DNA from: Yersinia massiliensis CCUG 53443
GTDB lineage: Bacteria > Pseudomonadota > Gammaproteobacteria > Enterobacterales > Enterobacteriaceae
NCBI RefSeq assembly: GCF_000312485.1
Contig: NZ_HE997647.1
Location: forward strand, 1 to 64,000
Length of the DNA stretch: 64,000 nt
Direction of reading: 5' to 3'
Below the pieces are notes generated by a model. It searched no databases. It had not been told where the DNA came from and saw only the letters and a program-made list of their open reading frames with translations. Below, piece after piece: positions 14,006-62,057 of the stretch. Position 1 is the first letter of the stretch. Each line of letters opens with the position of its first letter. Made by a program: the position numbers and the translations under genes.

Positions 14006-15970
<1,965 letters not shown>

Positions 15971-16033: not shown

Positions 16034-16070
16034 GGCTCGGATAATTTTCCAACTTTAACAGGGGGGATTT

Positions 16071-16478: not shown

Positions 16479-16505
16479 CCTGCGGGTAGGCCGTGTTTGG
16501 GATAT

Positions 16506-16534
16506 AAAATAAAAATGGCGGCCATGAGGCCGCC
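16506..16534 (-). terminator. Terminator downstream of malG
   Basis: The stem GGCGGCC/GGCCGCC (16517-16534) with a 4-nt loop is followed, on the minus strand, by ATTTTTATTTT. It would end transcription coming from malEFG and may also stop psiE. Confidence 0.75.
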
Positions 16535-16558
16535 CTAAAGACACAGTACCAGAGGAAA

Positions 16559-16757
16559 ATACCCTTCTTACTTGAAGCTGTAGCGTTGTTAGCTGCTCTC
16601 TCTCACCCGAATCACTGACCTGAGTCAGCTCATCGGGATTAATGAGCCTCGTCCTTGAGGCTCACCCTACGGGCTAGCATAAACGCTGTTCAAATCGGTT
16701 CCTGACCGATTTGTCACTCGTTTGCCGCCTAGCTACAACTCCAATTACTTTGGGTAT
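16559..16757. repeat. ERIC element carrying a 74-bp insertion
   Basis: The ends ATACCCTTC and TTTGGGTAT and the core CTCTCACCCGAATCACTGAC match the ERIC copy at 3472-3596, but this copy is 199 bp long. About 74 bp (from 16641 on) interrupt the second half, and the ERIC sequence resumes at CACTCGTTTGCCGCC. The insert has its own short palindromes (AGCCTC/GAGGCT; AAATCGGT/ACCGATTT). Confidence 0.85.
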
Positions 16758-16772
16758 TGAATAATGAAATCT

Positions 16773-46417: not shown

Positions 46418-46442
46418 CAATTTTTGTGAGATTTTATCGCTA

Positions 46443-46466
46443 AGCCCCGAATACGGGGCTTTTTGT
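46443..46466 (+). terminator. ssb terminator
   Basis: AGCCCCG (46443-46449) pairs with CGGGGCT (46454-46460) and leads into TTTTTG, 26 bp after the ssb stop. It marks the end of the conserved block before the accessory region. Confidence 0.92.
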
Positions 46467-46502
46467 TTTCTATTTAGTGGGTAATTAGGTGTGTGTGACC
46501 TG

Positions 46503-47264: not shown

Positions 47265-48277
47265 GGGTAATCCTCCTTGAGTTCACTGAGTGCTAACTGA
47301 ACACGTTCGTCCTTATCATCTTTTAGGGTCAAATATAATGATATCTCGTCGACGATATGTCTCGTGACTTTGGGGCTTCTATAACTCCAGATTTCCACCG
47401 TCGCCTTAGCCCAGTCGATATGTGTCATTTCATCAAATATTCCGCTATTCACTAGCGAGCTGAAAACCTTTTGGGTCATTGCAAATACGGGTTTAGGGCT
47501 GGGAGCAAGCATAGTGTACTCGCCTAATGCAGTGTCCCCAGCATAATAAATGCCATCACCTAAAGGCGGAATTTTGTTAATCCAGACTGTTTTTTTGACA
47601 GGGCTGCGCATCAGTTGCAGCGCTATTTCGAAGGTCTTTGAACGCGAATATTTGAGCGCGTAATGTCTAGTCGAAAAACTTTTATCAGACGTTAAAATAA
47701 GAAGCTTGGACTTCCTCAGTTCAGATATTGCTTTGGATAGCGTCACTCGACTGTACTTGTATGAACCCATCAACTTCTCTGCGGTATAGAGAACGTCGGG
47801 TCTAGAGGCTGACTCATCAAATAGTAGTTGGATTAGCATGGCTTGAGTCGCCGGGGAAAAATAGCACTCCTCGTGAATATTATTCTTCCTGATTCTGAAA
47901 GCTTCGCGCAAATCCATTGCTAATTCTGGGATAAAAAACTGCTTTCTAACGGCAATGAAATTTATATGGTGGTTAATTAGACTTCGGCGTTCGACGGAGG
48001 AGATACCATTACTAACGTAAACGACAACCAAATCAGTGGTCTTTTCAATAGCAGACAGACGTTTTCTCAACGTGACTATGCCTGGATAGTCGTCATCATT
48101 CTGTAAGGCAGCCAGCAGCGTGATGGGGGAATCACCCGGAATATCGATTTCTAATTTATAAAAACGAAAGACTTCCTGCACGCTGAACGGAACATTGAGT
48201 TTTACCTTTGTTAGCTTAGTGCGAAAACCCAATATGGATTCAATATACTCGCCTAGTTCAGATGTCTTGACTGTCAT
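47243..48277 (-). CDS. Winged-helix protein paired with the nucleotidyltransferase, probable antitoxin/regulator
   Basis: A 344-aa protein I do not recognise by name. Residues about 145-215 look like a winged helix of MarR type (TAEKLMGSYKYSRVTLSKAI, SELRKSKLLIL). The N-terminal part (1-140) is mixed alpha/beta with VVVYVSNGIS, and the C-terminal part (250-344) may be the partner-binding domain. It precedes and overlaps the nucleotidyltransferase gene by 22 bp, the order of antitoxin then toxin in AbiE-type pairs. An inverted repeat upstream may be its operator. Confidence 0.6.
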   Translation of the reverse strand: MTVKTSELGEYIESILGFRTKLTKVKLNVPFSVQEVFRFYKLEIDIPGDSPITLLAALQNDDDYPGIVTLRKRLSAIEKTTDLVVVYVSNGISSVERRSLINHHINFIAVRKQFFIPELAMDLREAFRIRKNNIHEECYFSPATQAMLIQLLFDESASRPDVLYTAEKLMGSYKYSRVTLSKAISELRKSKLLILTSDKSFSTRHYALKYSRSKTFEIALQLMRSPVKKTVWINKIPPLGDGIYYAGDTALGEYTMLAPSPKPVFAMTQKVFSSLVNSGIFDEMTHIDWAKATVEIWSYRSPKVTRHIVDEISLYLTLKDDKDERVQLALSELKEDYPWMKFED

Positions 48278-48309
48278 TATTCATTCCGCGTAAAGCGATT
48301 TTTTGTAGT

Positions 48310-48348
48310 GTAAAGTATGCATGTTTTCTTGTCAAAAAATGACTTTAC
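48310..48348. promoter_or_regulatory. Inverted repeat upstream of the toxin-antitoxin-like pair
   Basis: GTAAAGT (48310-48316) and ACTTTAC (48342-48348) form a perfect inverted repeat with 25 bp between, 33 bp before the 48277 start. In AbiE-type modules the antitoxin binds inverted repeats in its promoter, so this is a candidate autoregulatory site. The remaining sequence to 48617 shows no other gene. Confidence 0.45.
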
Positions 48349-48617
48349 GTTATGACAGTCAGCCCTTGCCATAACGTGGTTAACGGCGTGAAAGGAAACG
48401 TCTAAATGTTTAGTCATTGCTTCGACAAATGCCTCAATGCACTACTCTCATCGGGCGAATAAGTAGCTAAGTTGATGTTAGGAAAAAGTAAAAAATCTAA
48501 AGTGCGGTACCGAGTTGCCGATAGAAGGAACTTAACCCGTTATCAGGGGTAGTGGTTGGCTAAGGCGCGCCGCGCAATACGTTTGCGGCGGATGACAAAA
48601 TGCGTAAGGGAATAGAC

Positions 48618-49232
48618 ATGTCTGTAGCAAAAATCATATTTATCACATCAGTTTTGGGTGCGTCGATGGGCAGTAGTGTTGCTGCAACGACGCTAACCGC
48701 TAGCCTTATTGAGTGTAATCCACAGTTTTTCCAAGTGCTTTATCAGCATCGTGCTGAGTTGAAAAAAGTTGTCCGTGTGGAAGATGATAAAAAGGCAAAT
48801 GCATGGGTGCCAGTGAAGGATAAAGACGGCAGGATTGCTTATTTTACTCAGACCATGCGCGATGGTGCTTTCACGCTATCTGGCTATTACGAGCAGAGTA
48901 ATGACCTCGGTGAATTAGGGAAATACTACTTCTGGGGTCTACTGATCAACGAACCCGTTGAGAAAGTGATCGCCTTAACACCAGAACTTAAGTGGCAAAA
49001 GAACAGTGACACCTATATCACGCATGCACAGATAAAGATCAACCCGTCCCAACCTTGGCAGCCTAATCCTTCTGCTGTCGATGGTATTGCTCCTGCTAAA
49101 GATAGCGCTGAAAAAATCGTCATGCTCGACAGCAAAAAGGGTAAATCTTTACTGAGTTGCTCCATTCAGGGCAACATTAGCAGGGCGCTGCTTCTCCAAG
49201 AGCGACCAGATATCGCTGCAGGGAATGAATAA
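48618..49232 (+). CDS. Exported protein of unknown function
   Basis: I do not recognise this gene. From the ATG at 48618 it encodes 204 aa with a signal peptide MSVAKIIFITSVLGASMG then SSVAA, so the mature protein is likely periplasmic. It contains two Cys, in LIECNPQF and LLSCSIQG, that could form a disulfide. The middle is rich in charged and aromatic residues (YYEQSNDLGELGKYYFWG). An in-frame ATG at 48600 is possible. It stands alone between the toxin-antitoxin-like pair and a LysR gene; a 44-bp hairpin follows. Confidence 0.6.
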   Translation: MSVAKIIFITSVLGASMGSSVAATTLTASLIECNPQFFQVLYQHRAELKKVVRVEDDKKANAWVPVKDKDGRIAYFTQTMRDGAFTLSGYYEQSNDLGELGKYYFWGLLINEPVEKVIALTPELKWQKNSDTYITHAQIKINPSQPWQPNPSAVDGIAPAKDSAEKIVMLDSKKGKSLLSCSIQGNISRALLLQERPDIAAGNE

Positions 49233-49240
49233 TGAAACCT

Positions 49241-49284
49241 CACCGGCGCAATTTTACCTAATCAATCATGATAAGCCGCCGGTG
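49241..49284. terminator. Long-loop hairpin between two convergent genes
   Basis: CACCGGCG (49241-49248) pairs with CGCCGGTG (49277-49284) across a 28-nt loop. There is no T tract. It lies between the exported protein gene and the convergent LysR gene and could act on both. Confidence 0.4.
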
Positions 49285-49301
49285 GCTATCTATCCGCTCG
49301 C

Positions 49302-50216
49302 TTAAGGCTCTAAAGATAAAATCCTTTGTATCGCGTTCAGTGCACTGATTTTTTTTAAATCTTTTCGCCAAGAGAGATAAATATTAATACTGAATTTCTC
49401 TTCGTAGTAAGGCGTCATACGCTTATAGGTAATGCCTGCTCTGCTCACCATACACATTGAATATGGGATAAAGGCCATCCCGCGCCCTAATGCAATTTCA
49501 GACAACATTCGTAGTGGATCACCTGGCTCTGGTTTTCGGGTCAGATGAAAAGGTAAAGTATTAAAAATCTTCTCACATTTATCAAAATAGTCATTGTTAG
49601 CTAGACGATTAAACCAATATAACGGAAGGTCGCTAACATCTTTTAAATCAATAAATTCTTTTTGGCTCGCGGGATGACTCGTTGGTATGGTGATCAGATT
49701 TATTTCTTTATGGATAAATTTAAATTCCAACAATTCATTTTGATAAGGCTTTTCTGCGACAATTGAAAAATCTAAATGGCCGTTAAGCATCTCCATCAAG
49801 AGTTGTTTAGAAGTATAGGTGTCTTTATAGATTTTATTCGTAATAGAAAGTTCATCAAGTGTATCTTGAATCTTAGGCATTAAATTAAAATCTAACGTTT
49901 TAGTGGTTCCTGCAAGAAAACCTTGTTCATCAGTACTGTGCTTTTTAATTTCCACCAAACTATCAACCATCGTATTCAAAAGATGCCGACTTTGTAACTC
50001 AAATAACTTACCTGCCTCGGTTAGAGATACTTGATGTGTATCGCGAAGGAAAAGAGTGGTGCCAAGATTCTCTTCAAGATGACGAATTTGAATTGATAAC
50101 GGCGGTTGTGAAACGCCTAATCGTTCAGCCGCCCGCCTAAAACTCATATCTTCACATACCGCAAGAAAGAACTGCAATTGTTTGATAGTAGGTAGCCTTT
50201 TACTAAATATCTTCAT
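49302..50216 (-). CDS. LysR-family regulator, divergent from the AfsA-type cluster
   Basis: A 304-aa LysR-type regulator with N-terminal winged HTH (TIKQLQFFLAVCEDMSFRRA, RLGVSQPPLSIQIRHLEENL) and a periplasmic-binding-protein-like effector domain (about 95-300). The ATG at 50216 has GGAGAG upstream; a Met at 50231 adds five residues. It is divergent from the cluster that starts at 50400, with 183 bp of AT-rich DNA between, the usual arrangement for a LysR protein and its target. The inducer may be a product or precursor of the cluster; this is inference. Confidence 0.88.
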   Translation of the reverse strand: MKIFSKRLPTIKQLQFFLAVCEDMSFRRAAERLGVSQPPLSIQIRHLEENLGTTLFLRDTHQVSLTEAGKLFELQSRHLLNTMVDSLVEIKKHSTDEQGFLAGTTKTLDFNLMPKIQDTLDELSITNKIYKDTYTSKQLLMEMLNGHLDFSIVAEKPYQNELLEFKFIHKEINLITIPTSHPASQKEFIDLKDVSDLPLYWFNRLANNDYFDKCEKIFNTLPFHLTRKPEPGDPLRMLSEIALGRGMAFIPYSMCMVSRAGITYKRMTPYYEEKFSINIYLSWRKDLKKISALNAIQRILSLEP

Positions 50217-50399
50217 CACTCTCTCCAACATCCATGTTTATGCTTAAGCGATAGAGCTGCAACGAACACCTTGATTTTCATACCCGCTGATATCTTTATC
50301 CTATCACAAAATAAATACTTCGAAACATCGTTTTAAAAACGTAAGCTCTTTTCATCGAAATAATGATTAACCTTCAACTGATTGAAAAGGAAATAAACA
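50217..50399. promoter_or_regulatory. Divergent promoter region of LysR gene and cluster
   Basis: 183 bp of AT-rich DNA. LysR proteins bind T-N11-A sites in such regions; several fit by chance in AT-rich DNA, so none is named. Confidence 0.4.
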
Positions 50400-51014
50400 A
50401 TGTCTTCTAACTATCTAATGATCTCTCGCTACCCATTAAAGAAAGGAATGGAGTCTAAACTCGCAATATTGCTGCAACCTTCTGAAATGAAAAACTATTA
50501 TCTTTCTACACAAGGTGAAGATAAAGAATTGCTGGAATTCAACAGCTATACAGAACTCAGTGCAATTCAGAATGATGAGAATAATCTCGACTGCATTCTT
50601 GATAGCCTTAAAACAATACTATCTGGTGATGTCAAACGTGAGTTAGTTAAGTTTGTTGAAAGTCCTATTGCATCAGAAAAACCTATTCCGGATTCTGAAT
50701 ATGTACAGTTACGGCATGTCGAAGTCGTTCCAGAGTTCCACTCACAATATCGTAATTGGCGGGAAGAAACTATTTTCAATGTTGTTCGCAGTAATAAAGA
50801 CAAAATTGAATCCTTTGAAGCATATCATTCACTATTTAGTACTCAACCTGGTGTTATGTTCGTTTCGTCTTTTTCGGTATCACCTAATGAATATATTAAA
50901 TCATTCACTGATGAAAACTATCAGAGGATTATTCAACAAGCGGGTGATAAGTATATCACGGGCGGCAATGACGGTTTGTATACAAAAATATATCAGAAAA
51001 TTTCATTTCATTAA
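50400..51014 (+). CDS. Unknown protein, two similar halves, first gene of the AfsA-type cluster
   Basis: I do not recognise this 204-aa protein. It seems to have two halves of about 100 residues, each starting with a strand and a helix (YLMISRYPLKKGMESKLAIL; YVQLRHVEVVPEFHSQYRNW) and ending with strand-like segments. This would fit a tandem ferredoxin-like alpha/beta-barrel as in antibiotic biosynthesis monooxygenase-type proteins, but no catalytic motif is visible. No signal peptide. The next gene follows after 15 bp, so it is co-transcribed with the AfsA-like gene. AT-rich codon use. Confidence 0.6.
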   Translation: MSSNYLMISRYPLKKGMESKLAILLQPSEMKNYYLSTQGEDKELLEFNSYTELSAIQNDENNLDCILDSLKTILSGDVKRELVKFVESPIASEKPIPDSEYVQLRHVEVVPEFHSQYRNWREETIFNVVRSNKDKIESFEAYHSLFSTQPGVMFVSSFSVSPNEYIKSFTDENYQRIIQQAGDKYITGGNDGLYTKIYQKISFH

Positions 51015-51029
51015 TGACAAGTGAGAGAG

Positions 51030-51815
51030 ATGAATATGTTAACAAAGCAAAGTACAGATCTCTTGGTGGTTGGTGATAAATTTCATGACTTCGCCTTGGG
51101 TAATGATATTGTTACATTAAGTCAGCTAGACTTAATGACAAAAATACCATCTAAAGTATTAGCTAGAAATAATTCATTGGTCGTCGGGCAAGGTGTTAGA
51201 AAAGACACTGTAAATAATATATTAAAAAACTATCATGAATATAACCAACAAGTAAGTAATGTTGATTTGCAAATCTTGCTAGAAGATCAACATTCGCAAG
51301 GAATTAACAATTACACCCATAAGAAAGAAGAACATAATATTCTGATCGGAAAAACGACGAAAGTTGAAGAAAACATTTATACACTGCCGCTAATCATTGA
51401 TGAACGGTGTGAGCTGATGGGCGATCACCAATCAGGTAAACACTTACAGGGTATGCTATTAGTTGAGGCATTTAGACAAACATTTATTGCTGTTACTGAA
51501 GAGTTTTACCCGTTCCTTGGGGATATAAAAAAATACTTTGTCATCAATTCACTAAATACTCAGTTTCATAATTTCATTTTTCCAATTGCAGCCAATATTG
51601 TATATAAAGTTAATGATATTGATATTAATGAGCGGAGAGAAAAAGTAAGTTCAAGAATTGAAGCATGGCAGAATGATATATTATGTGCTTCTATGGAAGC
51701 AAATTTCACAGTTTATCCACTTGATATAATTAGTGAGAAAGAGAGTGAACTTGCAGAGAAGGCGATCAGTGATCATTTTATTAAAATAAATTCAAATAAA
51801 ATAGTCTCAGAGTAA
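51030..51815 (+). CDS. AfsA-type hotdog protein (A-factor synthase family)
   Basis: The 261-aa product carries the AfsA hotdog signature GDHQSGKHLQGMLLVEAFRQ (residues 131-150): in the family a conserved D-H-x(n)-H is followed by GM-LLEA-RQ. After it come the strands of a hotdog fold (INSLNTQFHNFIFP, 172-185; RIEAWQNDILCASMEANFTV, 209-228). AfsA joins a beta-ketoacyl chain to dihydroxyacetone phosphate in A-factor synthesis. Only one full hotdog core is visible, whereas Streptomyces AfsA has two; the N-terminal 110 residues are divergent. GTG at 51021 and ATG at 51036 are alternative starts. Neighbours (HAD phosphatase, thiolase, reductases) support a role in small-molecule synthesis. No enzymatic proof. 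Confidence 0.75.
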   Translation: MNMLTKQSTDLLVVGDKFHDFALGNDIVTLSQLDLMTKIPSKVLARNNSLVVGQGVRKDTVNNILKNYHEYNQQVSNVDLQILLEDQHSQGINNYTHKKEEHNILIGKTTKVEENIYTLPLIIDERCELMGDHQSGKHLQGMLLVEAFRQTFIAVTEEFYPFLGDIKKYFVINSLNTQFHNFIFPIAANIVYKVNDIDINERREKVSSRIEAWQNDILCASMEANFTVYPLDIISEKESELAEKAISDHFIKINSNKIVSE

Positions 51816-51820
51816 ATATA

Positions 51821-52657
51821 ATGAAAGGTAACAAAAGTTATACCTACGAATTATCAATTACCACACAAGGGCCACTTTATCCACCTAGTGAGGTCATCGA
51901 TAAAGACGGGGATTATGTTGTTATTGGTAATTTACTGCAGGAAGGGAAAATGATTTGGGGAGCGGCAATTGTTGATACAAAAACCCCAGTTCCCTCATTT
52001 GGCAATATTGAGGATTATCTAATTAAGAAGGATTTATCTAAAGCTTCAACAGATGAATTAAAAGATATAGAGCTTTTTACTTTGCCACTACCGTTGCCTT
52101 CTAATAATTATCCAATGGTATTTGCACCGGAGCAGTGTCCGAATGCTAATGAAGTCATACGGAATAGTCATCCTCTTAATCAGGCATATATTTCTGACTA
52201 TCGAGAGAGTGATGGGCGGAGAAAAATAGAAAAAATAACGTTGGCAGATTGGGCAAAGGCGCAGGGTGCTCTTACTGTGACTGTTTCGGATAACAGTCGT
52301 TCAGCTCGGTTTGATTTTAATTTTAGTCATCTTGTACCTAACAGCTTATATACTGTTATGAGCTTAAGAGAAAATGACTTAAATCCTGATGTATTAAGCA
52401 GGCCAGGACCTTTGGGCATACCGAATGTATTTATCACTGATGAACATGGATGTGCATCGTATTGGGCAATATTAGATAATCCGTTTCCATCGAGTGTGAA
52501 TAAAAGTGCTAATCGTATCATCAATGTGGTTGTGCTTTTTATGAGTTCACAGCAAAGCTATGGTGGAGCAATAGGGTTCTATGGTCTAGGTGGCGATATT
52601 CATGCCCACCTTAAATTAAAAAATTCAAGTTTTCACGATATTACAACACTAGGGTAA
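51821..52657 (+). CDS. Unknown beta-rich protein
   Basis: I do not recognise this 278-aa protein. The C-terminal half (about 140-270) looks like a beta-sandwich: TLADWAKAQGALTVTVSDNS, RFDFNFSHLVPNSLYTVMSL, GIPNVFITDEHGCASYWAIL and a His-containing end GGDIHAHLKL. The N-terminal half has a YVVIGNLLQEGKMIWGAAIV segment. No signal peptide is present. It starts 5 bp after the AfsA-like gene and 6 bp before the tautomerase gene, so it is part of the operon. It could be a binding or carrier protein, or a lyase without known motif. Confidence 0.6.
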   Translation: MKGNKSYTYELSITTQGPLYPPSEVIDKDGDYVVIGNLLQEGKMIWGAAIVDTKTPVPSFGNIEDYLIKKDLSKASTDELKDIELFTLPLPLPSNNYPMVFAPEQCPNANEVIRNSHPLNQAYISDYRESDGRRKIEKITLADWAKAQGALTVTVSDNSRSARFDFNFSHLVPNSLYTVMSLRENDLNPDVLSRPGPLGIPNVFITDEHGCASYWAILDNPFPSSVNKSANRIINVVVLFMSSQQSYGGAIGFYGLGGDIHAHLKLKNSSFHDITTLG

Positions 52658-52663
52658 AGCATT

Positions 52664-52894
52664 ATGCCAATTATAAGAATATCAGCATGGCCATTTGCGA
52701 ATGAGAATTCAGCCAGATTACTTATCGCTGATATTACTCGAGTCGTACATAATCAGCTAGGCTGTCCATTAGATAAGATTACGGTTTATATCGAAGAGAT
52801 TTTACCTTCTCGATGGGGGGATGCCGGTATTGCTGGTGACAATCCCGATTTCAAAACGAAAAGCCGAAGAATGTATTATGACGATGGGGAATGA
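52664..52894 (+). CDS. 4-oxalocrotonate tautomerase-family protein
   Basis: The 76-aa product begins MPIIRISAWP, leaving Pro as residue 1 after Met removal, the catalytic base of tautomerase-superfamily enzymes. The block LGCPLDKITVYIEEILPSRWGDAG fits the family. These enzymes interconvert keto and enol forms of 2-oxo acids or related compounds. It lies 6 bp after the unknown beta-rich gene, and its stop overlaps the next start (ATGA), so it is translationally coupled to the phosphatase. Substrate unknown. Confidence 0.85.
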   Translation: MPIIRISAWPFANENSARLLIADITRVVHNQLGCPLDKITVYIEEILPSRWGDAGIAGDNPDFKTKSRRMYYDDGE

Positions 52895-53553
52895 AGATGC
52901 GACAGACTGCATTTTATGATGTGGATGATACGTTAATCAATATTAAAAGTATGTTTCATTTCTACCAGTTCTGGGCAGAAGAGAATAATCTTGTTAACCA
53001 GAAGGAACTGTTTGATTCGCAGTTCTCTGTTGTTGCTAGAAAGCTGGTTAGTCGGGAGGAATTAAATCGTTCATATTATCGATTTTTCAAGGGCGTTCCA
53101 TTATTAAGTATAGAGCAGAGTGCAGAACGTTGGTTTAAAAAAACGTTTTCAGATACTGAAATATTTATTGGTTACACATTAAGAAGTGTCTTAGCACATC
53201 GAGCGTTAGGTAATAATGTGGTTTTTGTCTCTGGTTCAATGGTTCCACTCTTAAAACCTATCGCTCAGTTATTAGGTATTACCGATATACTCTGTACAAA
53301 ATTAGTGACTGATAGATCAGGAGTGGTTACCGGTGAAATTACAGATACACAAACAATCGGTGAAGGTAAAGCAATCGCAATTAGGCAGTTTTCTTTAGAA
53401 AAGAATATTAATTTATCAACGAGTTTTGCCTATGGCGATGATGTTTCTGATATTCCTATGCTTGCTTCTGTTGGTCATCCCGTATGTATTGGTGAGGGAA
53501 CAGCACTCAGCCATTATGCGTTAGAAAATAGCTGGGAGATTATACGTATTTAA
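52891..53553 (+). CDS. HAD-superfamily (subfamily IB) phosphatase
   Basis: A 220-aa hydrolase with motif I FYDVDDTLI (nucleophile Asp10, Asp12), motif II VFVSGSM, motif III Lys in IGEGKAIAIRQF and motif IV YGDDVSDIPML. Related to SerB-type phosphatases. In AfsA-type pathways a phosphatase removes the phosphate of the dihydroxyacetone moiety (for example MmfP in methylenomycin furan synthesis is a HAD protein), so its place here is telling. Its ATG overlaps the tautomerase stop; a second ATG at 52897 is possible. 86 bp separate it from the thiolase gene. Confidence 0.88.
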   Translation: MKMRQTAFYDVDDTLINIKSMFHFYQFWAEENNLVNQKELFDSQFSVVARKLVSREELNRSYYRFFKGVPLLSIEQSAERWFKKTFSDTEIFIGYTLRSVLAHRALGNNVVFVSGSMVPLLKPIAQLLGITDILCTKLVTDRSGVVTGEITDTQTIGEGKAIAIRQFSLEKNINLSTSFAYGDDVSDIPMLASVGHPVCIGEGTALSHYALENSWEIIRI

Positions 53554-53639
53554 CGAGCAAAACTGCTAAATATATAGATTTAAATACAATTCTATTTTTA
53601 ATAATAATGACGTCATTGACCGTTTATGAGGGAGGGTGC

Positions 53640-54815
53640 ATGGAAGATATTGTTATTGTAGGGGCGAAGAGAACAGCCATTGGTTCATTTCAGGGAGGGT
53701 TATCTACAGTACCGGCCACTGAATTAGGTGCCATCGTGATAAAGGATTTATTGCAGACATATCATATTAATCCTGAAAATATTGATCAGGTCATTATGGG
53801 GCAAGTGTTAACCGCGGGTTGTGGTCAGAACCCTGCGCGTCAGGCTGCATTAAATGCTGGATTGCCTAATAGTGTTTGTGCATTAACGATTAACAAAGTT
53901 TGTGGCTCAGGAATGATAGCCATTCAATTGGCTGCTCAGGCGATTCGTAATGGTGATGCGAATATGATTATTGCCGGCGGACAAGAGAACATGTCTTTAT
54001 CACCCCATATTCTATTGTCTTCACGTCAAGGCATCCGTGTCGGGAATAGTAATATTGTTGATTCGATGGTAAATGATGGATTAACAGATGCCTATAAGGG
54101 CTACCACATGGGGATTACTGCGGAAAATGTAGCTGCTCAATATAATATTTCGCGTGAGGATCAAGATGCATATTCAATGCAGTCCCATCAAAAAGCACTA
54201 GCAGCAATTGACGAGGGGAAATTTAAGGCGGAGATCTCCCCAGTTACCGTGATGCATAAAAAAGGCTCACAGATTGTTGATACTGATGAAGGACCAAGAG
54301 TGACTGAGGCTACTAAGCTAGCCAAGTTAAGACCCGCATTTGATTCTCAAGGTACCGTCACCGCAGGCAATGCATCTTCCTTAAATGATGGAGCAGCGGC
54401 CGTTATTGTCTGTAGTGCGAGCAAGGCGAAAGAGTTAGGGTTGACGCCACTAGTGAAAATATCTGCATTTGCCAATACCGGTATTTGCCCCTCAATAATG
54501 GGTGTTGCTCCCATTTCAGCAATTACTGAATGTCTGGAAAAGATTGATAGTGATATTTCTCAAATTGACCTTTTTGAATGTAATGAAGCTTTTGCAGCAC
54601 AATCGTTAGCCATTAAAAGGGCCCTCGTTATCCCGAAAGAGAAGATTAATATTCATGGCGGAGCGATCGCTTTAGGGCATCCAATTGGTGCATCAGGTTG
54701 CCGGATTTTGGTTTCACTCATTCATCAATTAGGTGCTCGGAATCTTAAAAATGGAGTCGCGGCATTGTGCGTTGGTGGTGGTGAAGGTTTAGCGATGGCA
54801 GTGGCACGAGTATAA
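53640..54815 (+). CDS. Thiolase (acetyl-CoA C-acetyltransferase type)
   Basis: A 391-aa thiolase II with nucleophile Cys88 in NKVCGSGM, the His motif GGAIALGHPIGASG and the second Cys in LCVGGGEG. It condenses two acyl-CoA to a beta-ketoacyl-CoA or does the reverse. The ATG at 53640 follows GGGAGGG; an upstream ATG at 53607 adds 11 residues outside the family. In this cluster it could supply the beta-ketoacyl unit for the AfsA-type enzyme. A degradative role cannot be excluded, but no beta-oxidation partner genes are nearby. Confidence 0.92.
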   Translation: MEDIVIVGAKRTAIGSFQGGLSTVPATELGAIVIKDLLQTYHINPENIDQVIMGQVLTAGCGQNPARQAALNAGLPNSVCALTINKVCGSGMIAIQLAAQAIRNGDANMIIAGGQENMSLSPHILLSSRQGIRVGNSNIVDSMVNDGLTDAYKGYHMGITAENVAAQYNISREDQDAYSMQSHQKALAAIDEGKFKAEISPVTVMHKKGSQIVDTDEGPRVTEATKLAKLRPAFDSQGTVTAGNASSLNDGAAAVIVCSASKAKELGLTPLVKISAFANTGICPSIMGVAPISAITECLEKIDSDISQIDLFECNEAFAAQSLAIKRALVIPKEKINIHGGAIALGHPIGASGCRILVSLIHQLGARNLKNGVAALCVGGGEGLAMAVARV

Positions 54816-55001
54816 CGCCATATTTAATGCCTTTCCGTCTTGGATTTATATTATCTATTAATAGTAAAGTGAATTTCTGAAGAGAATTTTGATTATTTAT
54901 TATCCAATGATGTCAATCTATTTTTGGCATCATTGATGATATTTCTTTCAGAAGTAACAACGAAAGGAATGAAATTACTATGAATAAAAATAGGTGCTAC
55001 T

Positions 55002-56237
55002 ATGTATTCAAATAAAACACTAGGGAAACCTGCTTCAGGTGGTGAGCTATCAAGTTTAATTATCTCAGTTATTGGTATTGTTTTATCTGTTGGCGCTGTT
55101 TATATTACACAGTTGATTTTCCAAGAGATATCAGAAAGTTTTGTTGTTGGCTTATTGGACGCTCGCTACTCATTTAGCGTATCATGCTTTGTTTATGCCA
55201 TTTCATTTTTTATATTCGGACCTTTGTCTGACCGAGTCTCTGCTAAGTCTTTGAGTTTATTTGGATGCGCTGGTGTTATTATTTGCTTGGTTCTCTGCCT
55301 TTATATTATCCAATATAATACTTTTCTTCTGGTCATGGCCTTGCTCGGTTTTTTTGCTGCGGCGGTCCCTGCTGCATTATTTTCGTATACGGCTAAAAAT
55401 ACAGAGGAGTATAAGCTTCCTCGTGCAATGGGGCTAATGATATCAGCCTCAATTGTTGGTATCATATTTAGTCGTAGTATCATTGGTATCTTATCGGACT
55501 ATTTTTCTTGGCGTACTGCATTCTTCATATATGCTGTGTTTGTGATGATTTCTGCACTACTTATTATCGTTGGTCTCAAAGAAAAAATGGCCATGAAGCA
55601 GAATCAAATGAAATTAGCAGATGTCTATATTAATGCGGTTAAAATCCTTGCCGACAAAAGAATCATTTTGTTTTTATCTTTGGGGTTCCTACTTTTCTTC
55701 AGCTACTTAGGATTATCTTCATTTCTAACCTATTACCTTAAAGGGGGAGCTTTTAACCTATCGTCAACAGCGTTAGGCTGGCTGAATTTTGTCGGGGTAA
55801 GCGCAGTTGGCGGTGCTTTTATTAGTGCGAAACTAGCAATGACAATCGATAAGAGAAAGATTTTAATGACATTCTTATGCGGTGTCGTTGCTTCTATATT
55901 AGTTATTTCCTTCTCTAATAATATTTATATTGTAGCATTTGGTATTTTTTCATTATTTATCTTTGTTTTTGGTATACAGCCTATTGTGATGTCCATACTG
56001 ACTCAACTGGTGGATGTTTCATCTAAAGGAACGATCTCATCATTATATCTCTTATCCTGTTTAGCGGGAGGGAGCTTTGGTACCTTTATCCTTGGCCTTG
56101 TCTGGAATTCGATGAATTGGAATGGCGTGGTGCTCACTTGTATTTTTGTATCTGTGATTAACATTGTATTAGCTATTCGCTATATGGGGGAATCTAAAGT
56201 TACCCATGTTATTAACCCTGTTGAGAGTTCAAAATAA
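55002..56237 (+). CDS. MFS transporter
   Basis: A 411-aa protein with about 12 membrane segments and the loop 2-3 motif FGPLSDRVSAKSL typical of the major facilitator superfamily, drug/proton antiporter type. It is the likely exporter of the cluster product, though import is possible. It lies 186 bp after thiolase, so a second promoter may exist there. It is followed after 3 bp by an SDR gene, so those two are co-translated. Confidence 0.9.
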   Translation: MYSNKTLGKPASGGELSSLIISVIGIVLSVGAVYITQLIFQEISESFVVGLLDARYSFSVSCFVYAISFFIFGPLSDRVSAKSLSLFGCAGVIICLVLCLYIIQYNTFLLVMALLGFFAAAVPAALFSYTAKNTEEYKLPRAMGLMISASIVGIIFSRSIIGILSDYFSWRTAFFIYAVFVMISALLIIVGLKEKMAMKQNQMKLADVYINAVKILADKRIILFLSLGFLLFFSYLGLSSFLTYYLKGGAFNLSSTALGWLNFVGVSAVGGAFISAKLAMTIDKRKILMTFLCGVVASILVISFSNNIYIVAFGIFSLFIFVFGIQPIVMSILTQLVDVSSKGTISSLYLLSCLAGGSFGTFILGLVWNSMNWNGVVLTCIFVSVINIVLAIRYMGESKVTHVINPVESSK

Positions 56238-56240
56238 ATT

Positions 56241-57023
56241 ATGTTGAATAAATTAGCGATAGTGACTGGTGCGACAGGTTCAATTGGTAAGGAAATAGCC
56301 AAATGCTTAGTAGAGAGCAATTATAAGGTTATTTTAGTCGGGCGTAGCGACAGCAAATTGACGCAAGTTAAAAATGAAATAGCTAACTTGACGGGGCAGC
56401 ATGATTTAGTGATTACACATAAGATAGACATTTCGGAACCGCTATCAGTGGATCAAGGGGTTGCTTATATTGATGAGTATTACGGTCCAATTGATGTATT
56501 GATAAATGCCGCTGGAAATGGTGAACCTACCGACTTTTTCTCTACTACAGAGGATGACTGGCAGGTCACTATGCAAGCAAAATTATTGGGCACAATACGA
56601 ATGACGCAAGCAGTAACTCGAACAATGTCAAAGTATAAGAGTGGAAAGGTCATTATTATTAATGGTACGTTCTGCTATGACCCTGACCCTCTTTTTATTA
56701 TTAACAGCACTGTTAATGCAGCATTAGCAGGGTTTACTAAGGCATGCTCAAAGTATTTGGCTACGAAGAATATTAATTTAAATGTGATCAATCCTTGGAT
56801 TACTGAAACAGAGTCTTGGAGTGAGACGTGTGAGAAATTAGCAGAATTCAAAGGAATTGATAAAGAGGTATTAGATAAAAATTTACGTTCAATAAACCCC
56901 TCTAATAGATACGCCTGTACTGAAGACATTAACAATGCAATATTGTTTTTATTAAGTGAAAAGTCATCATTTATTAATGGTGCTTCCCTGAATATTGATG
57001 GTGGAGCGACCGTTGGTTTTTAA
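56241..57023 (+). CDS. SDR-fold protein lacking the catalytic Ser-Tyr-Lys set
   Basis: A 260-aa short-chain dehydrogenase/reductase fold with the cofactor motif TGATGSIG (residues 9-16) and INAAGNG (89-94). Where SDRs have the catalytic Ser, this protein has NGTFC (141-145). Where YxxxK is expected it has NSTVN (155-159), so both Tyr and Lys appear to be Asn. The C-terminal INGASLNIDGG is normal. It may be a reductase with an unusual site, a dehydratase-like enzyme, or a regulatory or binding protein. It starts 3 bp after the MFS gene. Confidence 0.8.
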   Translation: MLNKLAIVTGATGSIGKEIAKCLVESNYKVILVGRSDSKLTQVKNEIANLTGQHDLVITHKIDISEPLSVDQGVAYIDEYYGPIDVLINAAGNGEPTDFFSTTEDDWQVTMQAKLLGTIRMTQAVTRTMSKYKSGKVIIINGTFCYDPDPLFIINSTVNAALAGFTKACSKYLATKNINLNVINPWITETESWSETCEKLAEFKGIDKEVLDKNLRSINPSNRYACTEDINNAILFLLSEKSSFINGASLNIDGGATVGF

Positions 57024-57157
57024 AACAGTTGATAGCATTAATGTCTTTCAACTAGCAGGGGTACTATTTTTATCTATTAAGTAAAATTATCGGATGTTGT
57101 GGTGGGGGGCTTATCGCCCTTACTACAACTTGACGTTATAGTTCAAAGGAATAATTT

Positions 57158-57940
57158 ATGAAGAGCTTAAATATAGTATTACTGTTACTCACTACGATTT
57201 TTTTTAACGAGAAAATAATGGCAGACTCATCAATCGTCTACAGGGGCTTTAATGCACCGACAGGAATTGCTGTCGACCAACAAGGCGCTGTTTATGTGAC
57301 TAACTGGTCGGGAGATTCCATTGAAAAAATAATGGCTAATGGTGAAAAAGAAGTTTTAGCAAGAGATATAGCATCTCCAGCTGGAATTGCAGTTAATCGC
57401 AATGGCGATGTATATGTATCTTCTTACTCTGATAATTATATTCTTAAAATTAGCCCTGAGGGTGTCCAGAGTAAAATATCAACGGGTTATCACACGCCTA
57501 CAGGTATTGCATTCTCCAATAATGGAAATTTGTTAATTGCTAATCGCTCATCAGGCGAGATATCGTCTCTTGACCTTGAAAGCGGTAGTGCAATAACGGT
57601 CGTCAAAGGATTAAGTCTTCCTGTTGGTGTTGCTGAACTCAATGACGGGAGCTTAGTTGTCACCCAATATAGCGGCAGGTTAACACATATTAGCCCATCA
57701 GGAGAAAAAACAGAGCTAGGCCATAATTTTTCCCGCCCTGGTGTAGGAATTGTTGTTGAGTCAGATGACGTGATTGTTGCTGTAGATAATGGGGCCAATG
57801 CGGTTAAGCGTGTCAATGTCAAATCAGGTAAAACTGAATTATTGGCTGATAATTTTAGTGGTGCGGTTGCATTAGCTAAACAAGGAAATAACTACCTCGT
57901 CGGAACTTGGAACGATGGAAGTATTCATTTAATAAAATAA
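57158..57940 (+). CDS. Secreted beta-propeller (SMP-30/NHL/Vgb-like) protein
   Basis: A 260-aa protein with signal peptide MKSLNIVLLLLTTIFFNEKI then MADSS, likely periplasmic. It is built of about six repeats of the pattern PTGIAVDQQGAVYVTNWSGD, PAGIAVNRNGDVYVSSYSDN, PTGIAFSNNGNLLIANRSSG, typical of the SMP-30 lactonase, NHL and virginiamycin B lyase propellers. A lactonase or lyase activity on the cluster product is possible but not shown. AAAGGAAT precedes the ATG; 134 bp separate it from the SDR gene. Confidence 0.82.
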   Translation: MKSLNIVLLLLTTIFFNEKIMADSSIVYRGFNAPTGIAVDQQGAVYVTNWSGDSIEKIMANGEKEVLARDIASPAGIAVNRNGDVYVSSYSDNYILKISPEGVQSKISTGYHTPTGIAFSNNGNLLIANRSSGEISSLDLESGSAITVVKGLSLPVGVAELNDGSLVVTQYSGRLTHISPSGEKTELGHNFSRPGVGIVVESDDVIVAVDNGANAVKRVNVKSGKTELLADNFSGAVALAKQGNNYLVGTWNDGSIHLIK

Positions 57941-58010
57941 TTTATAATCACTTAAAGTGTCAGTAAATAATATTTAGCAGGAATTCATTGCTTAATGATA
58001 AAGGAATAAA

Positions 58011-59024
58011 ATGAATAACAATAAGCTACCACAACGAATTTTAGGTTCAAGTTTACAGGTATCCTCAATTGGGTATGGCGCTATGGGGTTGAGTGAGTTC
58101 TATGGCCCTAGCGATGAAGTTGATTCTCTGAATATTTTGCATTCCGCTATCAATCAAGGGGTAACATTCTTTGATACGGCAGATATGTATGGCCGTGGGC
58201 ATAATGAATCATTGATTGGCCGATGCTTGTCTACCTTAACCGCTAGCGACCGTGCAAATTTAACCATCGCAACTAAGTGCGGCATCGATCGTGGTGATAG
58301 CACGGGTTATGAGCGGAAAATTAATAACTCCCCTGATTATATAAAGCAAAGTTGCGAATCATCCTTAAAACGACTAGGGGTGGAGAAGATCGATCTCTAT
58401 TATATGCATAGACTTGATGATTCAATACCTATTGAAGAAACTATGAATACTCTAGCTCACTTAGTGAGAGAAGGGAAAATCTTACATATTGGATTATGTG
58501 AAGTTTCTGTGGATATTCTTCAGCGCGCTCTATCGGTGTTCCCAATTGATGCGGTGCAAACAGAGTATTCCCTCTGGACACGGGATATTGAAGATGAAAT
58601 ATTACCATTCCTGATCAAGGAGAATATTGGGTTAGTACCCTATTCACCGCTTGGCCGAGGTTTTTTGACCGGAAAATATACTTCAGCAAATGACTTTGCA
58701 ACAGATGATTTTCGTCGTTTCAATCCGCGTTTTTCTGAAGAGAACATGACTAAAAATCTTGCTATTCTAGAAACAATTACACCTTTGAGCCATAAATATA
58801 ACTGTACTCTTGGCCAGATTGCGTTGGCATGGTTATTAGCGCAAAGTAGTAATATTGTTCCTATTCCAGGCACGAAAAAAGAGAAATACTTAACGGAGAA
58901 TATAGCCTCATGTCATATTAGCTTGGATGATTGTGATGTTATGCTCTTAAATAACATTAAGCACAAACTTAGTGTTTATGGCGAGCGATACACCCAAGAA
59001 GGAATGAAAGGTATTACTTACTAA
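58011..59024 (+). CDS. Aldo/keto reductase
   Basis: A 337-aa NADPH-dependent reductase with the catalytic tetrad Asp55, Tyr60, Lys89 and His133 in FFDTADMYG, IATKCG and DLYYMHRLD. The closest type seems to be the AKR13/YakC-like group (GYGAMGLSEFYG). It would reduce an aldehyde or ketone group, perhaps of a cluster intermediate. AAAGGAAT precedes the ATG; a terminator follows, marking the end of the cluster. Confidence 0.92.
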   Translation: MNNNKLPQRILGSSLQVSSIGYGAMGLSEFYGPSDEVDSLNILHSAINQGVTFFDTADMYGRGHNESLIGRCLSTLTASDRANLTIATKCGIDRGDSTGYERKINNSPDYIKQSCESSLKRLGVEKIDLYYMHRLDDSIPIEETMNTLAHLVREGKILHIGLCEVSVDILQRALSVFPIDAVQTEYSLWTRDIEDEILPFLIKENIGLVPYSPLGRGFLTGKYTSANDFATDDFRRFNPRFSEENMTKNLAILETITPLSHKYNCTLGQIALAWLLAQSSNIVPIPGTKKEKYLTENIASCHISLDDCDVMLLNNIKHKLSVYGERYTQEGMKGITY

Positions 59025-59055
59025 TGATATAGGACTTTCCTCGTTATTATTATTT

Positions 59056-59095
59056 GAGAAGAGTGGTTGCATACAATACTCTTCTCATTTTTTTG
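59056..59095 (+). terminator. Terminator ending the AfsA-type cluster
   Basis: GAGAAGAGT (59056-59064) pairs perfectly with ACTCTTCTC (59078-59086), followed by ATTTTTTT, 32 bp after the aldo/keto reductase stop. It marks the end of the long same-strand gene run. Confidence 0.88.
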
Positions 59096-59111
59096 ATTAA
59101 CGCAAAGTACT

Positions 59112-60011
59112 TTAACTATCGATGATTTCATATTTTTCTACATGACTAATAAAGGCACGCAAGCGTGCAGGGACATAATCTCTATCTCTAAACATGATAT
59201 ACGTTGGTCTAATCCCACCATGCCATTCGGGTAGTATGTGTACCAGTTCCCCGCGCTCAATAAGTGATTTAACAAATTGAAAAGGAGCCAAACAAATTCC
59301 AAGATTATTTTTTGCTGCTCGGATAATCAACTCGGTATCATCTACCACCATATAGGGAGCCGCTGAAATGACATACTCGCTATTTGAAGATCTATTGGTA
59401 ATCTGCCATTCAGTGTCAGATCTCGGCATAATCAACTTATGCTGGTTTACCAAATCACTTGGTACTAATGGAACGGAATTTTTAGAAAGGTATTCTATGG
59501 AAGCACAAAAAACATAATGTGAGCTCATGATTTTCTTGGCGATCCAATTACTGTCTTTCAACTTACCGACTCTAATAGCAGCATCAATGTTGAGAGATTC
59601 GAGATCTATCACTCGGTTGGTCACCATTAAGTCAATGCTGATCTCTGGGTACTTTTTCATAAAATTAAAAATACAATCACCAACCCATTGATGGGTAAGA
59701 TTTATTGGGGCGGTAATGACAAGTTTCCCCGTTAAGCTATGGTGATAGTCATCAAGTAATGTGGTAGCGGATAAACATTCAGATAAGGGGCCGACACAAC
59801 TGTCGTAATACATGCGTCCTAACGGTGTGAGTGTGATTGTTCGGGTTGAACGATTAAGAAGACGGCCGCCAATGCATTGCTCCAATTTTGTTAGTCGACG
59901 ACTGAGAGTTGGTAAGGGGATATCAGCGGTTTCAGAGACTTTTGTCAAACTCCCAGCGCCAACAACGCTGACAAATAAATTAAGATCGTCCAGAGAAATT
60001 TTATCTTTCAT
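59112..60011 (-). CDS. LysR-family regulator, divergent from SDR-EamA pair
   Basis: A 299-aa LysR-type regulator of the CrgA/DsdC-like subgroup, with N-terminal HTH (LNLFVSVVGAGSLTKVSETA, PLPTLSRRLTKLEQCIGGRL) and a C-terminal effector domain. The basic RLLNRSTRTITLTPLG block is typical. It is divergent from the SDR gene at 60127 with 115 bp between, so control of the SDR-EamA pair is likely. It is the second LysR gene within 10 kb and clearly different in sequence from the first. Confidence 0.9.
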   Translation of the reverse strand: MKDKISLDDLNLFVSVVGAGSLTKVSETADIPLPTLSRRLTKLEQCIGGRLLNRSTRTITLTPLGRMYYDSCVGPLSECLSATTLLDDYHHSLTGKLVITAPINLTHQWVGDCIFNFMKKYPEISIDLMVTNRVIDLESLNIDAAIRVGKLKDSNWIAKKIMSSHYVFCASIEYLSKNSVPLVPSDLVNQHKLIMPRSDTEWQITNRSSNSEYVISAAPYMVVDDTELIIRAAKNNLGICLAPFQFVKSLIERGELVHILPEWHGGIRPTYIMFRDRDYVPARLRAFISHVEKYEIIDS

Positions 60012-60126
60012 TTATGAAATTCACCTATTCAATTTCAACTCTTATGCTCAATAGATGAATATTATAGTATTTAACCAGGGATATAAACATGACTAAATAT
60101 TTTTTGAACAAATAAAGGAACGTCTT

Positions 60127-60840
60127 ATGAATGTATTTATCACTGGTTGTGAGAGTGGAATTGGTCAGAGCTTAACAAAGCGTATTCTAAAGGATGGACA
60201 TTCGGTTTTTGCTTGTCATTTCAAAAACATTCCAGAAAAGGAAACGATGCTATTAAAGAGAAAATACCAAGATAAAATCCATTTCACTCAATTAGATGTT
60301 ACACAGCGGGATGAAGTTGACCAAGCAGTATTGAATGCTTTAGATGTGATGAATTCGATTGATGTACTTATCAATGTTGCAGGTATTTCATATTTCAGCA
60401 GCCCGTTAACAACCACGGATATCGAGTGGAAAAATACATTTGATGTTAATGTGAATGGTTATTTTTATCTTACCCGCTCGTTGCTACCGGTGCTCATCAA
60501 TAGCCCTTCAGCACAAATAATAAATATGTCCTCTATTTGGGGAACGAAAGGAAATAAAGACATGTATGCATATTCTGTTTCTAAGTATGCCGTTCAAGGT
60601 ATGACTGATGGGTTGAGAGAATATTGCAAACCGTTAGGGATTAAAGTGACAAGTCTTATTCTTGATAAGGTTGATACGTCATTTAGAGAACTGATGGAAG
60701 AGCATATCAATATATCAAACGAGCAAAAGAAAAGAATGCTTGCTGCCTCTGATGTTGCTGACACAGTCAGTTATTTATTGAAAACATCTAGAAATGCACT
60801 TGCTTCTTCTATTGTCCTAGATGCAGCACTTTGGAGATAG
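60127..60840 (+). CDS. Short-chain dehydrogenase/reductase
   Basis: A 237-aa classical SDR with TGCESGIG (residues 6-13), INVAGISYF, active Ser in IINMSSIWG and the intact YAYSVSKYA (YxxxK) motif. Substrate unknown. Unlike the SDR at 56241 it has a complete catalytic set. AAAGGAAC precedes the ATG. The EamA gene starts 4 bp after its stop, so the two form an operon. Confidence 0.9.
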   Translation: MNVFITGCESGIGQSLTKRILKDGHSVFACHFKNIPEKETMLLKRKYQDKIHFTQLDVTQRDEVDQAVLNALDVMNSIDVLINVAGISYFSSPLTTTDIEWKNTFDVNVNGYFYLTRSLLPVLINSPSAQIINMSSIWGTKGNKDMYAYSVSKYAVQGMTDGLREYCKPLGIKVTSLILDKVDTSFRELMEEHINISNEQKKRMLAASDVADTVSYLLKTSRNALASSIVLDAALWR

Positions 60841-60844
60841 TCAC

Positions 60845-61801
60845 ATGAATAAAAGTCTTGTTTTGCTTTGCGTCGTTCTCTCCACATTTTTCTGGGGATC
60901 GAATTTCAATGTTGCAGCGTTAATCGTCAATCATGTTTCTCCTATGATGGCGGCAACTGAGAGGTTTGTCATTGCGAGCATCGCGATATTAGCGATACTT
61001 TTCTTACGAGAAAGAAATAACTGGGTTGTTCTGAAAAGGAATTATCTGGCATTTATTCTGCTCGGCCTTTGTGGTATCACCGGTTTTAATTTGGCATTCT
61101 TTATTGGATTGCAAACAACCACCCCCATAAATGGTGCCCTTATTATGGCAACCTCGCCAATTACAACGGCACTACTTTTCACTCTCAGTGAACGGCAGAA
61201 AATATCACGTATCCAGTGTGTTGGCATGTTGGTCAGTTTATTAGGGGTTTTACTGGTTATCAGCAAAGGCTCTATCGGTAATTTATTGAATATGCAATTT
61301 AATCAAGGTGATATGATTATTTTGCTCGGTAATATTGCATGGGCGGCCTATACGGTTGGCTGCCGAAAATACAGTATTGGCGCTACCCCATTGCAGATAA
61401 CCAGTTTTACCATGCTGTTTGGAACGTTAGGTATCGTGCTATTTGCTTATTACACAGAAGGGACATTCAGCGGCTTATCGAATATTTCTGCCTTTAACCA
61501 TGCCGCACTTATCTACATGGGAATTGCAGGGTCGGTATTAGCTTATTTATTCTGGAATGTGGGGATTAAGAATTTAGGTGCAGCGAATACGGCTGTTTTC
61601 TTCAACCTTGTCCCCGTCTTTACCATGATATTAGCCATGTTGAATAATATTTTACCCACGGGTTTACAGATTTCAGGGGCTGTTTTAGTTATCGCTGGGG
61701 TTATCTTTGCAACACAGTCTTATAAGCTGTTTTATCGTTCTAAACCGCTCATCACTCCACCTGCAACATCAACACCACCGAGTACGGGGCCGGTTCGATA
61801 A
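60845..61801 (+). CDS. EamA/DMT-family transporter
   Basis: A 318-aa protein with ten membrane segments and two EamA repeats (STFFWGSNFNVAALIVNHV at the N-terminus, GNIAWAAYTVGCRKYS starting the second). The family exports amino acids and small metabolites. The ATG at 60845 follows GGAGATAG; the frame is open further upstream but overlaps the SDR gene. The C-terminus is a Pro/Thr-rich tail (TPPATSTPPSTGP). Coupled to the SDR gene. Confidence 0.9.
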   Translation: MNKSLVLLCVVLSTFFWGSNFNVAALIVNHVSPMMAATERFVIASIAILAILFLRERNNWVVLKRNYLAFILLGLCGITGFNLAFFIGLQTTTPINGALIMATSPITTALLFTLSERQKISRIQCVGMLVSLLGVLLVISKGSIGNLLNMQFNQGDMIILLGNIAWAAYTVGCRKYSIGATPLQITSFTMLFGTLGIVLFAYYTEGTFSGLSNISAFNHAALIYMGIAGSVLAYLFWNVGIKNLGAANTAVFFNLVPVFTMILAMLNNILPTGLQISGAVLVIAGVIFATQSYKLFYRSKPLITPPATSTPPSTGPVR

Positions 61802-61888
61802 GAGAGAAGGTTAATCAAGGGTTCGAGGTTACCGTGATTTGTGTTTGAAAAAGCCGTTCCCCAGATTATCAACCCATTTTGACTGCAT

Positions 61889-61927
61889 GCCCTACACTCT
61901 ATTTCGTAGCACTAGCGGTGTTAGGGC
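61889..61927. repeat. Inverted repeat at the right edge of the accessory block
   Basis: GCCCTACAC (61889-61897) and GTGTTAGGGC (61918-61927) form an imperfect inverted repeat in the 256-bp gap between the EamA and GST genes. It could be a weak terminator or remnant. No T tract follows and no gene is seen in the gap. Confidence 0.35.
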
Positions 61928-62057
61928 TCATTTTGGGATGATTGAAGTACGCCTTGAGTCGTGGCCTGCGGTTTTTATTAACCCGTTTCATTGCTTCAGT
62001 CGCAAAGTTTGTCTGTCGTGACTAGGTTTTATTTTCATATGCGGAGTGATACTGATT

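Follow-up and report, generated by a model that had tools for sequence, protein, structure and literature searches.

The window analysed here (64,000 nucleotides, positions 1 to 64,000 of contig NZ_HE997647.1 of Yersinia massiliensis CCUG 53443, assembly GCF_000312485.1) carries an operon, beginning at position 50400 and organised around an AfsA-like protein, whose probable role is the production and export of a small antibacterial molecule that diffuses and has an AfsA-type scaffold, along with protection of the producer from it. The best reading of that product is an autoinduced antibacterial compound of the butenolide or furan type, rather than primarily a signal or a virulence factor. An earlier sequence-only reading had proposed a ‘signalling or virulence’ metabolite and a pathway new to Yersinia-like bacteria; such a role is less likely than the killing of competitors, for which a homologous cluster of Ruegeria pomeroyi DSS-3 is required, and because of that cluster the type is not new to Gram-negative bacteria (PMC7426152; here and below, the accessible part of that report).

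The R. pomeroyi cluster, a megaplasmid-borne ‘GBL’ (gamma-butyrolactone) cluster described in 2020, is required both for diffusible killing and for self-immunity (PMC7426152). Its AfsA protein is stated to be SPOA0342; gene order and a regulator at SPOA0344 would make SPOA0341 the counterpart of a 278-residue protein of the window, SPOA0343 the orthologue of the ABM-like protein encoded at 50400-51014, and SPOA0340 and SPOA0339 the counterparts of its tautomerase and HAD phosphatase. Six transposon mutants of the cluster (in afsA, the 278-residue gene or the LysR gene) do not kill; immunity is not significantly reduced in the three afsA mutants, and two mutants of the 278-residue gene and the LysR mutant become sensitive; transcription of ten cluster genes depends on afsA (PMC7426152). 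Five core proteins account for 1-6% of the proteome (PMC7426152). The ABM-like, AfsA-like, 278-residue, tautomerase and HAD proteins of the two clusters are 40-55% identical and are encoded in the same order and on the same strand (AfsA 40%, 278-residue protein 53%, tautomerase 42%, HAD 42%; the cluster’s aldo/keto reductase, or AKR, 51%), and LysR, AKR and MFS genes adjoin both cores. This match of five core proteins and the AKR to a killing cluster argues, by homology, for a similar activity of the window’s operon. The R. pomeroyi authors counted a SPOA0342 homologue in 35 organisms and all three middle genes in 29 (PMC7426152), and so had already noticed the occurrence of these middle genes in other organisms; what is added here is a larger core, a swap of acyl donors, a split into modules, an AfsA-free cassette and the window’s own variant.

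In the pathway that we propose, the thiolase would convert acetyl-CoA to acetoacetyl-CoA, and the AfsA-like enzyme would join this beta-keto acyl unit to a phosphorylated three-carbon unit, most likely dihydroxyacetone phosphate (DHAP), yielding a phospho-butenolide from which the HAD phosphatase would remove the phosphate. The ABM-like protein, the tautomerase, the AKR and a second SDR-family protein (SDR2) would then rearrange, oxidise or reduce the intermediate to a butenolide or furan product, the MFS and EamA transporters would export it, the 278-residue protein and some of these other genes would also serve immunity, and the LysR regulators would couple expression to product. A suggestive analogy is provided by gladiofungin of Burkholderia gladioli: there, DHAP is the acceptor for a beta-keto thioester in a condensation carried out by an AfsA domain, which is accompanied by a HAD phosphatase (GlaP) and an oxidoreductase (GlaG); that domain off-loads a trans-AT polyketide synthase, whereas the window’s protein is a free enzyme encoded in an operon with a thiolase (PMC10574677, in the accessible part of that report).

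The assignment of the central enzyme is secure at the level of its family: the protein encoded at 51021-51815, the only AfsA match in the genome, matches PF03756 with 59.5 bits (cut-off 24, E 4.6e-16) over residues 100-230 and profile positions 3-132 of 133, as the sequence-only reading had supposed. The thiolase matches PF00108 (E 6.2e-101) and TIGR01930 (458.6 bits, cut-off 240.55), and its best NCBIfam models are acetyl-CoA C-acetyltransferases (PRK05656, 555 bits, below that model’s own cut-off of 688).

The distribution of these genes was followed with a profile of four AfsA-like proteins, searched against a collection holding one genome per species, in which 81 loci passed and 80 were kept; the window, the R. 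pomeroyi record, a Streptomyces plasmid and one further locus (L011) completed a set of 84, all of which contain AfsA by construction. Three loci from repeat genomes already among the 80 (L008, L009 and L010) and one with a different AfsA type (L012) were left out. Each locus was scanned with profiles and with tblastn for every window gene and six partner genes, within a limit of 9 kb; because contig ends truncate some loci, and several closely duplicate one another, the counts refer to loci and not to independent events. The 278-residue gene occurs in 52 of the 84 loci, and in all 52 the ABM-like, AfsA and HAD genes lie within 9 kb; among the 32 loci lacking it, ABM is found in three and HAD in 29. 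The 52 core loci further contain a tautomerase (40), a carboxymuconolactone-decarboxylase relative, CMD (40), an AKR (33) and an MFS transporter (40, matching either of two overlapping profiles that allow no reliable split). Thiolase and KAS III, as candidate donors, are nearly exclusive in them: 20 have the former, 13 (all Actinobacteria) the latter, and one (L087) both, which fits a shared role as donor of a beta-keto acyl unit. The swap suggests that the starter is a beta-keto acyl unit, probably acetoacetyl. The idea that the AfsA-like enzyme condenses a beta-ketoacyl chain supplied by the thiolase, already put forward in the sequence-only reading, thus gains support from the replacement of thiolase by KAS III in those 13 loci and from the gladiofungin precedent (PMC10574677); the enzyme itself, as set out below, is not a synthase of the ScbA/BarX type.

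A number of observations weigh against the antibacterial reading, or against parts of its chemistry. The R. pomeroyi cluster has no thiolase, its regulator is orthologous neither to LysR1 (short helix-turn-helix similarity) nor to LysR2 (21% over 168 residues), and its MFS protein is unlike the window’s; it also lacks the SDR and propeller genes and an SDR2-EamA pair beside the core, and has a CMD gene. Neither donor is present in 20 of the 52 core loci, and three other strong thiolases are encoded elsewhere in the genome, so the cluster’s thiolase may be dispensable. Among the 32 loci without the 278-residue gene, thiolase is found in five, KAS III in nine and both in four, so that donors are not exclusive there; this co-occurrence in four loci outside the core type slightly lowers our confidence. 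The presence of a phosphatase is no proof that DHAP is the substrate. The R. pomeroyi transposon insertions may be polar, and its afsA mutants stayed immune despite a 4- to 60-fold drop in cluster transcripts in the one mutant examined (PMC7426152); basal expression must therefore suffice for immunity, or part of the immunity must have another source. The same authors leave open that a signal switches on another antimicrobial (PMC7426152), and the literature searched yielded no product for their cluster and no known product for the window’s operon.

The signal model, in which the product would be a butyrolactone- or furan-type autoregulator that LysR1 or LysR2 senses and any antibiotic would come from another source, is the most serious competitor to the antibacterial reading, and we consider it unlikely. 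Signal production is a known role of AfsA proteins, and each of the two transcription units has a LysR gene at its flank. In R. pomeroyi, transcription of ten cluster genes requires afsA, and the authors keep this model open; however, only 21 of 4,252 genes change in the afsA mutant, ten of them in the cluster itself (PMC7426152), and the tailoring, transport and immunity functions exceed the needs of a signal.

The models of the canonical gamma-butyrolactone synthase and receptor also argue against an autoregulator. The Streptomyces mmfL-mmfP-mmfH and ScbA/AfsA systems combine an AfsA domain, a phosphatase and beta-keto donor chemistry, all of which the window shares. Two AfsA hotdog stretches are typical of ScbA/BarX-type synthases; the window’s protein has a single stretch and reaches 17.2 bits against the gamma-butyrolactone synthase model NF041195 (equivalog cut-off 200), where the two-stretch AfsA of L012 scores 187.5 bits, itself just below that cut-off. 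None of nine genomic hits to the ScbR-type receptor model NF041196 passes (best 71.1 bits, cut-off 150), and hits below cut-off also occur in 13 of 14 control genomes. No flavin oxidoreductase family of the MmfH kind is found among the Pfam hits of the cluster’s 14 genes (mmfL, mmfP and mmfH are named in PMC12593393). The methylenomycin system is set apart by the description of MmyD as an AvrD-like butenolide synthase, as opposed to the PF03756 protein of the window, and by the lack of any flavin enzyme among the window’s family hits. By its core the cluster belongs with the R. pomeroyi type, apart from canonical butyrolactone systems, which suggests that the label ‘butyrolactone’ can mislead for clusters of this kind.

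No Pfam family passes threshold for the operon proteins encoded at 50400-51014 and 51821-52657, and one-by-one scans of 43 and 42 members of the two families gave only scattered hits with E > 0.005; a single scanned member matched PF03992 (ABM), with E 0.031. The alignment of the 278-residue family has 65 invariant columns in 43 sequences, and the only fold likeness, a weak one, is to a SOD-like barrel. Because the 84 loci had been chosen by AfsA, a counter-search was made with the 278-residue protein as query. It was found in one of 25 genomes of its own genus (its own, the 24 others lacking it), in two of 398 in a phylum sample (its own and one partial, distant match) and in nine of 394 in an order sample (six strong matches and three weak). 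AfsA adjoins the gene in five of the six strong matches (the window, L130, L120, L121 and L128). The sixth, in genome G783 (L127, G783:C100, 8628-12542), is the only carrier among 152 genomes of its family and has tautomerase, 278-residue, CMD, MFS and AKR genes and, close to them, a MarR gene; no AfsA, ABM or HAD hit was obtained in 18.9 kb, and no AfsA match in the whole genome. As judged from its gene content, this set is a candidate orphan immunity cassette, and would support the antibacterial reading: the AfsA-free genome divides the genes into a set for making the product and a candidate set for immunity, and together with the donor swap it renders both the molecule and its protection directly testable.

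Longer, distant relatives of the 278-residue protein, with signal-like N-termini by eye and probably secreted, were seen at L117, L123 and L124; none has AfsA near it in loci of 3 kb (for L123, in 16 kb), and the family is therefore wider than the cluster. The L123 relative has no Pfam hit.

Tautomerases, thiolases and AKRs are common in degradation pathways, and an operon for catabolism or detoxification, as in aromatic breakdown, would also account for the CMD gene of a related locus and for the existence of the AfsA-free version in G783. We nevertheless regard such a function as very unlikely: AfsA and HAD genes recur with the biosynthetic KAS III and once, on the Streptomyces plasmid (KAS III, ACP-like, AfsA, HAD, ABM, 278-residue and AKR genes), with a gene annotated as phosphopantetheine-binding and ACP-like; the family searches of the window genes turned up no ring-cleavage enzyme; and the genetics of R. 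pomeroyi tie the core to killing (PMC7426152).

The AfsA-like protein as query matched six of 295 sampled genomes of its family, its own included; more widely, the core was found in Erwinia, Enterobacter, Serratia, Photorhabdus, Gilliamella, Bartonella, Vibrio, Alphaproteobacteria, Betaproteobacteria and Actinobacteria. The gene block is not a matter of chance, since other genera have blocks with their core genes arranged alike, the closest of them sharing about 40-60% protein identity; the linkage of AfsA with HAD and thiolase noted in the sequence-only reading is likewise seen again, as a unit, in both Proteobacteria and Actinobacteria. Neither a missing AfsA domain nor a scattering of the genes, each of which would have spoken against that reading, was thus encountered. 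The genes named by that reading lie where it placed them, on the same strand and in an intact operon, with families confirmed by Pfam and NCBIfam; its gene list was incomplete in omitting those at 50400-51014 and 51821-52657 and an extension to 61801. The conserved unit spans 49302-61801, about 14 genes including a second LysR gene, SDR2 and EamA, and matches the gene set of Gilliamella loci L038 and L130. Gilliamella sp. wkB308 (L038) has the same 14 families as the window, at 43-64% identity (both LysR genes, SDR2, EamA, the core five, thiolase, MFS, SDR-like, propeller and AKR), with SDR2-EamA and both LysR genes upstream of the core, whereas the window’s LysR2, SDR2 and EamA genes are downstream of it.

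The SDR2-EamA pair recurs beside the core in other loci, and divides the 52 core loci into two groups. After correction by hand, 38 have a tautomerase without SDR2 and EamA, 11 the reverse, two both and one neither (Fisher p 1.5e-8, with relatedness not corrected for); the uncorrected split was 39/11/1/1, because the 9-kb limit missed the window’s SDR2 (60127) and EamA (60821). Only the window and Gilliamella L038 have both modules. A tree of 76 of the 84 AfsA-like sequences (the short or split matches of L037, L046, L062, L064, L066, L076, L089 and L096 being omitted) places the window among 18 rows from Enterobacterales, Vibrio and Gilliamella (98/96), a set nested in a 32-row group (99/93) that contains the R. 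pomeroyi protein, although a programme warning indicates that long branches make some joins unsure. The 278-residue gene is present in 31 of these 32 rows (the exception being the long-branch L052), and all 17 thiolase-bearing rows of the group sit in the 18-row set.

These patterns permit a broader proposal, which we hold tentatively and judge to be rather less than evenly supported: that of a widespread class of AfsA-derived antibacterials, with a near-fixed core (ABM-like, AfsA-like, 278-residue, HAD and mostly tautomerase), interchangeable thiolase and KAS III donors, and two interchangeable modules for tailoring and export (tautomerase-CMD-AKR-MFS or SDR2-EamA). The 278-residue protein would be a new immunity or processing enzyme, spreading without AfsA as an orphan resistance cassette, and the window and Gilliamella, with both modules, might produce either a pair of related compounds or a single compound tailored twice.

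Other AfsA arrangements were also seen. One pathway type, that of L011 (G153, 8857-17355; L062 and L080 similar), has FAD monooxygenase, thiolase, AfsA-like, HAD and AKR genes without ABM or the 278-residue gene; thiolase was not found in L080. A different Enterobacterial cluster (L012 of G065, 8980-13370) has, by eye, HAD-like, P450-like and MFS-like genes following its two-stretch AfsA. AfsA-like and HAD pairs without other core genes occur at L047, L049-L054, L057-L060, L063, L067-L070 and L072, among them Gilvimarinus, Kiloniella and Rhodospirillales, with LysR, MFS or SDR hits within 9 kb in few.

Table 1. Features of the cluster and its island (positions in the window)
Feature	Position	Strand	Remarks
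Island with cluster	49242..62052		left edge approximate, 49242 to ~49281
LysR1, divergent regulator of operon	49302..50231	-	PF00126 and PF03466
LysR1-operon intergenic region	50232..50399		putative operator word TATCACAA at 50302
ABM-like protein	50400..51014	+	tandem ferredoxin-like repeats; first operon gene
AfsA-like condensing enzyme (predicted)	51021..51815	+	PF03756; one hotdog domain and ~95 N-terminal residues without assigned family
278-residue core protein (unk278)	51821..52657	+	no Pfam family over threshold
Pro1 tautomerase	52664..52894	+	PF01361, 22.7 bits, barely over cut-off 22; Pro after Met kept
HAD-IB phosphatase	52891..53553	+	TIGR01490, 148.8 bits, cut-off 98.3; DVDDT motif
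Biosynthetic thiolase, predicted to form acetoacetyl-CoA	53607..54815	+	Cys/His/Cys motifs intact
MFS transporter, predicted exporter	55002..56237	+	PF07690 (MFS_1), 130.5 bits
SDR-fold protein without catalytic Tyr and Lys	56241..57023	+	PF00106
Beta-propeller, probably secreted (NHL / Vgb-lyase / ScyE-like)	57158..57940	+	PF24684, 55.0 bits, cut-off 50
AKR	58011..59024	+	PF00248, 262 bits
LysR2, second regulator	59112..60011	-	PF03466 and PF00126
SDR2	60127..60840	+	PF00106; catalytic Ser, Tyr and Lys all present
EamA-type transporter	60821..61801	+	PF00892; overlaps SDR2

The ‘SDR-like’ protein of the sequence-only reading (Table 1) does have the SDR fold, but both its catalytic Tyr and its catalytic Lys are replaced by Asn. 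The same is true of ten others among 16 SDR hits (L034, L038, L061, L065, L071, L073, L086, L088, L091 and L094), the other five having the look of unrelated neighbours. This subfamily, which spans Proteobacteria and Actinobacteria and mostly adjoins an MFS gene, is possibly a non-redox SDR enzyme or a binding protein. The propeller scores 72.9 bits with the ScyD/ScyE model, below its cut-off of 80, and its N-terminus is hydrophobic by eye.

The cluster lies in a genomic island, with a GC content of 0.33-0.43 (in 1-kb steps) over 47-62 kb against about 0.50 in the flanks, and seems to have been acquired from elsewhere. The nearest sister found, G306, is without the cluster and has 0.6 kb of other sequence at its site; its identity to the window is 94.6% up to 46419, 94.7% at 48466-49241 and 95.6% from 62053. 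The left edge of the island shows a 48-base match (79%, E 0.001). The window’s cluster proteins gave no hit at E < 0.01 in L112, and in three further members of the genus (L113, L114 and L115) the flanks are about 0.2, 1.4 and 2.2 kb apart. Serratia nevei (L019) has its own version of the cluster, which there too is flanked by the uvrA-ssb and GST genes; no other of the 80 loci is placed in this way, and one site thus holds two different cluster versions. Nearby, the minus-strand stretch 46503-48277 encodes two partner proteins, one of them nucleotidyltransferase-like, that by eye resemble AbiEii/AbiEi and have no Pfam or PADLOC hit, within a segment (46419-48466) absent from G306.

Acquired genes may be mere cargo, unexpressed or non-functional in their new host, and the presence of the 278-residue gene in a single genome of the genus would suit such a reading, as would the broken copy in Photorhabdus khanii (L009 / L046), a remnant with partial ABM, an interrupted afsA and LysR (other Photorhabdus species have intact copies). 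For the window this is highly improbable: all 14 cluster genes are open frames, the motifs of the thiolase, HAD, tautomerase and SDR2 proteins are preserved, and the spacing is that of a tight operon (gaps of 6, 5, 6 and -4 bases from 50400 to 53553, with 53 before the thiolase gene and 186 before the MFS gene).

Upstream of the operon, a gene matching the LysR1 profile is divergent from abm in many Enterobacterales loci. The word TATYACAW is common to the region of 50302 and the LysR-abm intergenic regions of ten relatives; it is present in 11 of 17 such regions, against a mean of 1.03 in mononucleotide shuffles (the regions are related, and their counts non-independent), and is possibly a LysR operator.

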